The notes under the pieces were generated by a model. The model was not told the origin of the DNA, ran no database searches, and worked only from the letters and a program-made list of their open reading frames with translations. The position numbers and the translations under genes were made by a program. Shown piece by piece: positions 1 to 2,420 of a stretch of 64,000 nucleotides of DNA (its first letter is position 1; each line of letters begins with the position of its first letter). The stretch is from Ferrimonas kyonanensis DSM 18153 (GTDB lineage: Bacteria > Pseudomonadota > Gammaproteobacteria > Enterobacterales > Shewanellaceae), in the NCBI RefSeq assembly GCF_000425405.1, contig NZ_AUDJ01000011.1, forward strand, positions 1 through 64,000. Reading direction: 5' to 3'.

Positions 1-10
1 TGGGTGATGA

Positions 11-88
11 GATGGACGCCCCTAAATTCGGCGTCAAATGCGCCAAACTGAGATTTGTACAAATCAGTTCACATTAGGAGCGTCCATC
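11..88. repeat. inverted repeat in the transposase leader
   Basis: gatggacgcccctaa at 11-25 and ttaggagcgtccatc at 74-88 are complementary at 14 of 15 positions and flank the short leader before the transposase start. The right arm overlaps the ribosome binding site (aggag, 76-80), so a transcript starting outside the element would fold over the start site. That the hairpin limits transposase translation is inference. Confidence 0.6.
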
Positions 89-1111
89 ATGAAAGCTAAC
101 ACAATCACCATCGATCTGGCTAAAAATGTGTTTCAATTGCTTGGTGTCGATAGCTCGGGCAATAAGCTGTTCTCCAAGCGATTGAATAGAGCAAAAATGA
201 TTGAATTCATGAGGCTGCAACCTGCTGCGTTTGTTGTCATTGAGGCTTGTTTTTCATCTCATTATTGGGGGCGTTTGTTTAATGAGATGGGGCACCAAAC
301 AGCCATTATTCCAGCTCAGCACGTTAAACCTTTCGTTCGTGGCAACAAGAATGATAAGAACGACTGCCTCGCGATCTACGAAGCCAGTCGGCGTCCAAAC
401 ATTCGGTTTGTGCCTATCAAATCAGAAGCGCAGCAAGAAGTGCTGGCACTGCACCGCATGCGGGAGCGCTTTATCGGTTGCCGAACCCAGTGTATCAATC
501 AAACTCGCTCCATCCTGTCTGAATTTGGCGTCACTATTCCCCAAAGCCACGCTCAATTTAAGATAGCGCTGGTTGATTACATGGGCGACAACACCATCCG
601 GCCCTCAGTGCGCCTATTGCTGAACACGGTCTACGATGAGCTGGAACAACTCAACCAACACTTAGCACTTATCGATAGCCTCATTCGCCAATACAACCAA
701 CAAAGCCCGGCAGCCAAACTCATGCAGAGCCTTCCAGGTGTTGGCCCAATCATTGCCTCAGCATTCTCTGCTGCTATCGATAAAGGTCAGGCCTTTCAGA
801 ACGCCAAAGAGCTTCCGGTTTGGTTGGGCCTAACCCCTAAACAGCATGCTTCGGGTGAGACAAACCAACTTGGGTCGATAACCAAGAGAGGCGATAGATA
901 CCTGAGAAAACAGCTTATTCACGGTGCGAGAACGGTGGTGTCACATGCTCACAAGAAGAACGATGACTTTAGTCGTTGGATTAACCGACTCGTCGAGCGA
1001 CGGGGCAAAAACAAAGCGGTTGTAGCAACGGCGCATCGGCTTGCTCGCCTGATGTGGATTCTGTTAGCCAAAGGGGAGGCCTATCAACCTCAGTACACGG
1101 CTTCAGCTTGA
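89..1111 (+). CDS. IS110/IS1111 family transposase (DEDD recombinase)
   Basis: This 340-residue recombinase moves the element through a circular intermediate without classical target duplication. The N-terminal RuvC-like domain shows the acidic set D9 (TITIDLAKN), E52 (VVIEACF) and D89/D92 (KNDKND). The C-terminal Transposase_20 domain has LPGVGPIIAS followed by the HASGETNQLGSITKRGD stretch, which holds the conserved serine of the family. ATG at 89 is preferred over the upstream in-frame codon because aggag lies eight bases before it and MKANTITIDLAKN is the usual type of N-terminus. Length is normal and the frame is intact, so the gene may be active. In this family the protein works with a bridge RNA; the candidate RNA lies directly downstream. 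Confidence 0.95.
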   Translation: MKANTITIDLAKNVFQLLGVDSSGNKLFSKRLNRAKMIEFMRLQPAAFVVIEACFSSHYWGRLFNEMGHQTAIIPAQHVKPFVRGNKNDKNDCLAIYEASRRPNIRFVPIKSEAQQEVLALHRMRERFIGCRTQCINQTRSILSEFGVTIPQSHAQFKIALVDYMGDNTIRPSVRLLLNTVYDELEQLNQHLALIDSLIRQYNQQSPAAKLMQSLPGVGPIIASAFSAAIDKGQAFQNAKELPVWLGLTPKQHASGETNQLGSITKRGDRYLRKQLIHGARTVVSHAHKKNDDFSRWINRLVERRGKNKAVVATAHRLARLMWILLAKGEAYQPQYTASA

Positions 1112-1400
1112 AGACGGTGGCGTACCAGTCATCGCCACCAGGGTAGCTCGGACAAGACAAGGGTCAACGAGCCCGGTTGGGTGTTTAGAGCCTCTGGTGG
1201 CCACTACCTGCTAACTTGGCGAAGATGAACAACGGTATACCCGGCCTACACTAAACCCGCTTGGGACATGGCTTTAAAAGCCGCATGGGTGAAACCAGTT
1301 TAGGGTGTGTTGGCTCGGAACTCATTTGGGGCGCTGCAAGGCAGTTAAGCCCGGATATATGTCAGAGTAGCGCAGTAAACTACTACAAAATCGACCAAAT
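1112..1400 (+). ncRNA. candidate bridge RNA of the IS1111-type element
   Basis: Two similar stem-internal-loop units are visible. The first has outer stems 1135-1141/1194-1200 and 1146-1149/1188-1191 and a cap hairpin 1161-1164/1171-1174. Its 5' loop strand holds aagaca (1154-1159), complementary to TGTCTT of the target; its 3' strand holds tgggtgt (1178-1184), identical to the target's left side. The second has outer pairs 1313-1316/1365-1368 and cap stems 1329-1332/1349-1352 and 1334-1337/1341-1344. Its 5' strand holds ctcat (1321-1325), complementary to the left end atgag (7-11); its 3' strand holds atatatg (1355-1361), identical to the right end (1491-1497). This matches the target-binding and donor-binding loops known for IS110 bridge RNAs. 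Transcript limits are guesses. Confidence 0.75.
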
Positions 1401-1497
1401 CATCGCATTGCGAGTCGGTAGGAGGTTAGAGCAAAGTACCGAGATTTACATCTTGGGGGCATTGCCTACGTTGACATCGCTGGGGCGCCCATATATG

Positions 1498-1705
1498 TCT
1501 TTATAAGGGATTCGACAAAACACACCGAATACGACGTCGACCTGACAGAACCAACCAATTTCCCCTCTTCGGAACTGATGCCTATCAATTCTGGTAAACG
1601 CTTTTAACCTGGGTGTCTTTATAAGGGATTGATAAGGGGTTGGGTGTCTGAATATGAGAGTCGTAAATAGGGGCTGGTAGTCTGGGTGTCTTGATATGAG
1701 GGATT
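1498..1705. repeat. short interspersed repeats around TGGGTGTCTT, target of the IS
   Basis: Copies start at 1610 (tgggtgtctttataaggg), 1641 (tgggtgtctgaatatgag) and 1683 (tgggtgtcttgatatgag); a further copy is split by the insertion sequence (1-6 plus 1498-1512). Common to them is TGGGTGTCT, then a short AT stretch, then a G-rich stretch. They lie between the element and the HAD phosphatase gene. They could be REP-like intergenic repeats, which are frequent IS110-family targets, but no paired palindrome was seen. Confidence 0.7.
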
Positions 1706-1769
1706 TGTCAGTGACAGGGGTGGGGTTGTGGCATAATGCCGGCCTTCGCTCACTTTTGCTGTACGCCAA

Positions 1770-2420
1770 ATGACATATCACGCTGCCATTTTCGACATGG
1801 ACGGCCTACTGCTGGACACCGAACGCCTGTGCATGCGCATCTTTCAACAGGCCTGTGACACCCAACAACTGCCGTTCCACCAAGACGTCTACCTGTCTAT
1901 CATTGGCCGCAACGCCGCGGGCATTGAACGCATCTTTCGACAGGCGTATGGCGAGGATCTCGACCGATTGCATGAAGAGTGGCGCTGCCGCTACCACGCC
2001 GTGGTGGAGCATCAGCCGATTCCGGTAAAACCCGGCGTGATTGACCTGCTGGAGTGGTTGCAATCCAATGGCATCGCTATGGCGGTCGCCACCTCGACGG
2101 CCAGAGAGGTAGCCAGAAAAAAACTGACGCTGGCAGGGCTAGACCGCTACTTTGACAGCCTGGCCACTGGGTGTGAAGTCAGCCAGGGCAAACCGGATCC
2201 GGAGATTTATCGGCTGGCCGCCAGCCGGCTCAATGTTGCCCCGACAGAGTGTCTGGCCTTTGAGGACTCCAACAATGGCGTCCACTCCGCCGTGGCGGCC
2301 GACATGATCACCTACCAGATCCCGGATCTCGTGGCCCCCAGCGATGAGGTACTGGCGTACGGCCACACCGTCCTGCCATCGATGGTTCAGGTACTCGATG
2401 ATTTGAAACGGCGTCAGTAA
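1770..2420 (+). CDS. HAD-superfamily phosphatase, beta-phosphoglucomutase-like
   Basis: This is a 216-residue soluble hydrolase of the HAD superfamily, subclass with a helical cap between motifs I and II. Motif I is FDMDGLLLDTE with nucleophile D9 and acid D11; motif II is the threonine/serine in VATSTA; motif III the lysine in GKPDPEIY; motif IV the acidic pair in FEDSNNGVHSA. Such proteins dephosphorylate sugar phosphates or nucleotides (the YcjU, YniC and GS1 type), and the substrate cannot be read from sequence. ATG at 1770 gives the usual N-terminus directly before motif I. It stands alone, convergent with the patatin gene, and the upstream region carries the repeats targeted by the insertion sequence. 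Confidence 0.9.
   Translation: MTYHAAIFDMDGLLLDTERLCMRIFQQACDTQQLPFHQDVYLSIIGRNAAGIERIFRQAYGEDLDRLHEEWRCRYHAVVEHQPIPVKPGVIDLLEWLQSNGIAMAVATSTAREVARKKLTLAGLDRYFDSLATGCEVSQGKPDPEIYRLAASRLNVAPTECLAFEDSNNGVHSAVAADMITYQIPDLVAPSDEVLAYGHTVLPSMVQVLDDLKRRQ

Follow-up and report, generated by a model that had tools for sequence, protein, structure and literature searches.

The DNA analysed here (the window) is a stretch of 64,000 nt at positions 1 to 64,000 of contig NZ_AUDJ01000011.1 in the draft genome of Ferrimonas kyonanensis DSM 18153 (40 contigs, 4.93 Mb), and its start, which is the contig edge, is occupied by an IS1111-type insertion sequence (5-1495, forward strand) delimited by its ends, its flanks and an intact copy of its target. 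The element encodes a DEDD transposase/recombinase of 340 amino acids (89-1111, forward strand), and the noncoding stretch downstream of this gene (1112-1495) holds three units, all on the forward strand: an upstream target-binding loop (TBL1, 1131-1203), a second target-binding loop (TBL2, about 1240-1316) and a donor-binding loop (DBL, 1313-1370). With a probability of about 0.85, we read the locus as an IS1111-type element with RNA-guided recombination, in which the three-unit RNA of the 3' noncoding region would be the guide, TBL2 the ancestral target loop and TBL1 its duplicate.

The insertion sequence and its target site

The recombinase is matched by the Pfam domains DEDD_Tnp_IS110 (8e-15) and Transposase_20 (1.5e-22), and its translation carries the motif GL-P----SG (as LGLTPKQHASG), which the text of PMC11187229 gives as GL-P----S(t)G for IS1111 recombinases. 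A subterminal inverted repeat (12-22 and 1482-1492; ATGGACGCCCC and GGGGCGCCCAT, 10 of 11 positions identical) is flanked outward by a left extension of 7 bp (TGATGAG, 5-11) and a right extension of 3 bp (ATA, 1493-1495). Together with a protein size within 330-350 amino acids, the noncoding region and the target behaviour, these sequence features place the element in the IS1111 type.

The target of the element reads TGGG-TG-TCTTT, of which TGGG stands at the left flank (1-4) and TGTCTT at the right flank (1496-1501). An uninterrupted target copy, the next copy of the interrupted repeat, lies about 115 bp downstream of the element (1606-1632, forward strand), with TGGGTGTCTTTATAAGGG found exactly at 1610-1627, and comparison of the flanks with this copy places the insertion point between TGGG and TGTC. 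The TG core is present at both junctions, and the target is not duplicated; the junctions of relatives read TGGG-TG-TC, a specific target in a single orientation. The first 445 bases of the element are also found at the end of contig C11 of the same genome, where the left flank ends with TAACCTGGG; the right flank starts with TGTCTTTATAAGGGATT and the intact next repeat copy reads TAACCTGGGTGTCTTTATAAGGGATT. Since the two contig ends overlap, they may represent one copy of the element.

The interrupted repeat has a length of about 114 bp (window 1513-1700), its next copy is intact, and TGGGTGTCT recurs at 1610 and 1683. Short arrays of a similar kind are present in the same genome (C3:344393-344508, 53-bp spacing) and in genome G312 (about 20-bp spacing). 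As a candidate for a host repeat enriched genome-wide, TGGGTGTC was rejected (227 occurrences versus 223 in the reversed control); TGGGTGTCTT is more frequent than in the control (20 versus 5), and G312 is enriched (222 versus 131). A lone right-end remnant, 81% like window 1434-1500, lies at C2:2747-2812 of the host genome (L004), and the host's other IS1111-type element (L005, L006 and L007, at the ends of contigs C24, C20 and C12) has the left end TGATGTG and adjoins a palindromic repeat, CGCGGGTACCCAG and variants, which is apparently its target.

Three conserved units and their guides

Relatives of the element (49-67% protein identity) were found by a genome scan and by searches of the order, genus and family in Shewanella, in Pseudoalteromonas and elsewhere in the order, several of them in many copies; viral contigs, when scanned, yielded none. 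The first-pass annotation, drawn from the letters of the window alone, had described two stem-internal-loop units in the noncoding region, with guides matching the insertion site and the element ends. All of its strings are where it had placed them (AAGACA at 1154-1159, TGGGTGT at 1178-1184, CTCAT at 1321-1325, ATATATG at 1355-1361, ATGAG at 7-11 and ATATATG at 1491-1497), and both units are real and conserved in the alignment of the relatives' noncoding regions; the count of two fell short, however, as a third unit lies between them.

In each unit, relative to the TG core, the first strand complements the top strand on the right and the second strand equals the top strand on the left, so that the guide order the annotation had seen agrees with the IS1111 order described in the text of PMC11187229, in which a top-strand complement precedes a bottom-strand match. 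Within TBL1, the right-target guide AAGACA (1154-1159) is complementary to TGTCTT, and the left-target guide TGGGTG(T) (1178-1184) equals the left target plus the core. The string TGGGTG occurs twice in the noncoding region, at 1178 and at 1286, and the latter copy, inside the unit that had gone unnoticed, is the left-target guide of TBL2 by sequence match (1286-1291); the right-target guide of this loop, GGGACA (1263-1268), makes four Watson-Crick and two G-T pairs with TGTCTT. The guides of both target loops read TGGG-TG-TC plus at most two further bases. Of the DBL guides, also recognised by sequence match, the one at 1321-1325 pairs with the left end and the one at 1355-1361 repeats the right end together with the core; between them they read the joined element ends ATATA-TG-ATGAG. 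The pairing of ctcat with atgag is thus present as annotated, although good pairing of the donor first strand is limited here to 5 nt (CTCATTT); most relatives have CTCATTA or TTCATCA at this place.

Matches of this kind are rare by chance. When 1112-1400 was shuffled 20,000 times with its dinucleotides preserved, the target unit, defined as the complement of TGTCTT with TGGGTG 12-60 nt downstream of it, appeared in 44 shuffles and the donor unit in one, and no shuffle held both; the window's other stretches of 289 nt, 2,490 with both strands included, lacked the target unit. Among 4,227 Rfam models, none matched window 1-2000 at E<=1.

Covariation supports all three structures. The alignments A1 (TBL1), A2 (TBL2) and A3 (DBL) took 20 of 32, 22 of 33 and 20 of 33 fragments found. 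In A1, 92.2% of the cells of 16 pairs are paired and 12 pairs show double changes, with a covariation of 0.622 versus a shuffled mean of 0.275; in A2 (22 sequences), 94.0% of the cells of 13 pairs are paired and nine pairs show double changes (0.581 versus 0.173); in A3 (20 sequences, 19 of them distinct), all cells of eight pairs are paired and five pairs show double changes (0.458 versus 0.197). In each case none of 500 shuffles scored as high, and slid versions of the structures reached at most 0.179, 0.114 and 0.099, respectively, a comparison in which the consensus structures, fixed but derived from the same alignments, have an advantage. The own-sequence fold of TBL1 also goes beyond shuffles (z -3.79). 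The annotation had named the lack of a conserved structure across relatives as an outcome that would contradict it; what was found is conservation with compensatory changes.

The donor guides track the element ends: compared with the ends of other elements, their own ends score strictly best in 16 of 34 cases, with a mean fraction of 0.21 (one row, L127, with a misplaced left end, was kept in). Examples are CATCTA with GATCTATG (L038), CATAGA with ATAGATG (L036 and L101) and ATGTG with CACAT (L037). Extension of the donor reading by two bases into the target does not hold as a general rule; it is seen in some of the compact families described below and not in others. The right end of the element (1470-1495, forward strand) contains TTGACA (about 1471-1476), which would give TTGACA-17-TATGAT when joined to the left end, and joined ends give TTGAC(A/T)-17 or 18-TATGAT in 12 of the 15 elements with a known left end (13 of 16 when L069, with an assumed left end, is counted). 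Junction promoters of IS1111 elements are reported in the text of PMC11187229.

Guide and target were compared in a table of 57 elements, which remained after listed removal of duplicates and incomplete elements and of L169, L162 and L051 (no right end). The tracking test used 46 of these, omitting a duplicate (L071), two tandem copies of L107 (L106 and L158), an element whose right junction was not found (L159), one without TBL2 (L112), two with deletions (L095 and L013) and four without TBL1 (L150, L132, L137 and L140). At position 5 of the right target, the TBL1 guide pairs in 41 of 46 insertions (21 guide types) versus 46% with the guides of other types, a count reached in none of 20,000 permutations of guides among types, and at position 6 it pairs in 29 of 46 versus 44%; the summed pairing run is 83 versus 39.6 expected (permutation p 1e-4). 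With one vote per type (45 insertions and 19 TBL1 types, L086 also being omitted, as its right flank is that of L168), the values are 0.933 versus 0.567 at position 5 (0 of 5,000) and 0.788 versus 0.467 at position 6 (p 0.0008). Among the relatives, a change in the guide thus goes with a change in the target at positions 5 and 6 of its right side. Two observations on the omitted loci stand beside this result: the tandem copies at G312:C1:984101-988483 (L106, L107, L158) form three head-to-tail copies of a related element with a right flank common to all, and L013 is a natural deletion that removes the TBL1 right guide.

The range of this correspondence is short. Two large groups share one RNA each, and position 5 of the target is A in 11 of 15 and T in four insertions of the GGTCGTGACA type, and C in six of ten and T (by wobble pairing) in four insertions of the GTGTAGGACA type. 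The assumption that each of the seven matched bases on the right matters was given up, as copies with identical RNA tolerate other bases beyond position 5-6; to judge from these sequences, only about six right-side positions matter for targeting. The annotation's expectation that insertion sites would vary with the first loop thus held for positions 5-6 and not for the full length of the match. The left target is TGGG in 32 of 40 cases (TGGA in six, TAGG and AGCC in one each), so that the left guide is testable in few of them. Taken together, the relatives, the covariation and the tracking support what the first-pass annotation had proposed, an IS1111-type element with a bridge RNA in its 3' noncoding region.

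Origin and possible roles of the second target loop

TBL2 is, by sequence comparison, homologous to TBL1 and to the single target loop of relatives without TBL1. At E<=1, a model built from TBL2 (R2) finds TBL1 in each of the 23 loci that carry it in full (20 of them at E<=0.01), with a match at 1124-1200 of the window (29.3 bits, E 9.5e-5), and the reciprocal model from TBL1 (R1) finds TBL2 in 15 of the same 23 loci at E<=1 (nine at E<=0.01), with a match at 1237-1313 (23.1 bits, E 0.002). On the sole target loop of L150, L162, L132, L137 and L140, R1 scores 48-52 bits (5 of 5); three of these loci were in A2 and none in A1. In these five and in compact relatives (about 40% identity), the one target loop stands directly before the donor loop, that is, in the place of TBL2. 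Of 24 compact loci scanned, R2 matches nine (six at E<=0.01) and R1 two, at one place each; two plasmid loci (L170 and L171), left unused, gave no match to R1 or R2. Among 20 single-loop compact families, chosen out of 42 loci whose ends are clear, the best loop prefers its own target over the 19 others in eight, and the mean rank fraction of the own target is 0.24 (0.5 by chance). In the distant IS1111-type relatives L042-L047, the flanks (right GCCGC(G/A)TTAA, left TAAC) are reminiscent of integron attC sites.

On a tree of 48 recombinases, rooted at the midpoint and with loop labels assigned from alignment and models (L095 being labelled as TBL1-bearing though fused, and six of the 27 compact rows, L029, L032, L041, L070, L109 and L114, standing unscanned with R1), the presence of TBL1 requires two changes versus 15 for shuffled labels. 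These are either one gain after L150 branched off and one loss in L132, or two gains, and on this comparison TBL1 looks like a clade-specific duplicate of TBL2. In L095 and L012, a deletion has produced a fused loop whose first half comes from TBL1 and whose second half comes from TBL2.

Both loops have changed together in several relatives. The left target is GCC (GCC-TG) in L122 and GGA (GGA-TG) in L151/L154, and the left guides of TBL1 and TBL2 are both GCC in the former and both GGA in the latter; in L069/L071 the right target is TGGC, and both loops have GCCA. Furthermore, TBL1 mispairs at position 5 in five insertions (L148, L147, L142, L139 and L131), and TBL2 pairs at this position in every one of them, with runs of 3, 1, 4, 1 and 3. 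Four of these share the GGTCGTGACA RNA, in which TBL1 fails to pair with just two or three bases at this position, T among them, so that chance may explain the TBL2 pairing.

Several observations weigh against the reading of an RNA-guided element with two target loops. The own-sequence folds of TBL2 (z -0.30) and DBL (z -1.04) do not go beyond shuffles, and the whole 258-nt fold (z -1.24) does not form TBL2 as modelled. TBL1 positions 7-10 show no target tracking in the 46-insertion set, position 7 pairing in 10 of 45, under the 41% expected, and in 12 of the 20 single-loop families the own target was at least matched in score by that of some other family. The GGA target is also found in four insertions of types with GGG guides (by G-T pairing), and this case of retargeting is weak because GGA is accepted by those types as well. 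Position 5 of TBL2 pairs in 24 of 46 insertions versus 48% with other types (p 0.35 with wobble, 0.022 with Watson-Crick pairs only), the tracking with one vote per type is weak (p 0.010 and 0.025), and position 6 shows none; the left guide of TBL2 mispairs with the target in L119/L120 (GGTTG) and L121 (GAGTG), and the right guide mispairs at position 4 in L094.

The weak tracking of the TBL2 right guide and the mispairs of its guides speak for an ordinary two-loop bridge RNA of TBL1 and DBL, in which TBL2 would be a structural scaffold or the decaying relic of an older target loop. This explanation carries real weight while falling short of even odds, as the TBL2 stems stay paired through many double changes and TBL2 has taken on new target sequence together with TBL1 in L122, L151/L154 and L069/L071; the bases flanking its guides differ from those of TBL1, so that copying of guides from TBL1 is not obvious. 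The confinement of TBL2 tracking to the core-proximal bases and the left guide could instead reflect a division of labour, with TBL1 serving insertion and TBL2 excision, where it would meet the target halves flanking the integrated element and core-proximal bases would suffice. In keeping with this, the donor strand continues past the core into the next two target bases (TC, or GC in L069 with its target TGGC), and target flanks are required for circle formation according to the text of PMC11187229; such read-through is not general, however, with matches in L057 and L046 and none in L028, L035, L043, L114 and L031, and relatives with a single target loop manage both steps, which makes the division of labour unlikely. 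That the RNA holds two independently programmable addresses, each insertion being guided by TBL1 or TBL2, is less likely than not, and we entertain only tentatively the corresponding view of the five insertions mispaired by TBL1 (four of 15 of the GGTCGTGACA type plus L131), in which TBL2, pairing three or four bases in three of them, would have been the guide. Very improbable, finally, is the explanation that the matches arose by chance, or by common ancestry of element and target repeat, and guide nothing. It draws on the near-constancy of the targets, a left target that is mostly TGGG and a right target that starts TGTC nearly throughout, which leaves most guide bases untestable by change, but it is opposed by the shuffles, none of which held both units, by the permutation tests at positions 5 and 6, by the retargeted relatives, and by independent families with very different targets and matching guides. 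The sequence comparisons allow three roles for TBL2, as a second address, as a reader in excision or as a scaffold.

The sequences show the anatomy, the covarying structure, the correspondence of guides with target and donor, and the insertion point; under the favoured reading of an RNA-guided element with an ancestral and a duplicated target loop, the following cycle can be proposed. By analogy with the work on ISEc11 and IS621, the element would be excised as a circle, in which the joined ends would form the promoter TTGACA-17-TATGAT and drive transcription of the recombinase gene and the RNA. With the DBL and one target loop, the recombinase would then bring circle and target into pairing, and strand exchange would join them at the TG core. 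The comparison of relatives suggests that TBL2 is the ancestral target loop, that TBL1 arose by duplication in the ancestor of the clade, and that TBL1 is now the main reader, its right guide best predicting where copies sit. TBL2 is probably still a target loop, acting as an alternative address or as a core-proximal reader, and this is the least certain step. Two homologous target loops illustrate how guides may evolve specificity, by duplication followed by divergence or by loss of one loop (as in the fused loops of L095/L012 and the single loop of L132/L137/L140); they would also point to a single recombinase RNA with room for two addresses, and the element and its relatives offer a natural set of variants with which to ask whether excision and insertion depend on different loops.

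Relation to known bridge and seekRNAs

Bridge RNAs or seekRNAs of IS1111 elements were described in 2024 (PMC11187229, PMC11208160). By its sequence, the RNA in the window belongs with them, having target-matching strands in a conserved loop, the IS1111 order of these strands, and a further loop whose strands match the donor; the published cases have one target loop where this RNA has two homologous ones, which is taken as a point of difference and is not counted as defining. No description of a second target loop was found in the passages on IS1111/IS110 guide RNAs that were searched in these two papers, the figures of which may already show one.

As far as the texts of these papers go, the closest likeness is to the seekRNA elements ISEc11, ISKpn4, ISPst6 and ISPa11 (Siddiquee et al. 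2024, PMC11187229), which share with the element the subterminal inverted repeats with 7-bp and 3-bp extensions, a recombinase of about 340 amino acids, the 3' noncoding region, the junction promoter, the top-strand complement preceding the bottom-strand match, and natural retargeting among relatives. Those elements have one target-reading RNA of 70-100 nt each, in contrast to the two homologous target loops found here. The IS621 bridge RNA (Durrant et al. 2024, PMC11208160) likewise combines a target loop with a donor loop and includes the core dinucleotide in each pairing, but it lies in the left end, has its left guide before its right guide and carries one target loop, whereas the present RNA lies in the right end, has the reversed order and carries two. 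The text of the same paper predicts bridge RNAs for 93.0% of IS1111s, those of ISPa11, ISCARN28 and ISAzs32 being drawn; like the RNA described here, these predicted RNAs are located at the right end, and their donor nucleotides lie in a multi-loop, which is compatible with a TBL2 beside the DBL.
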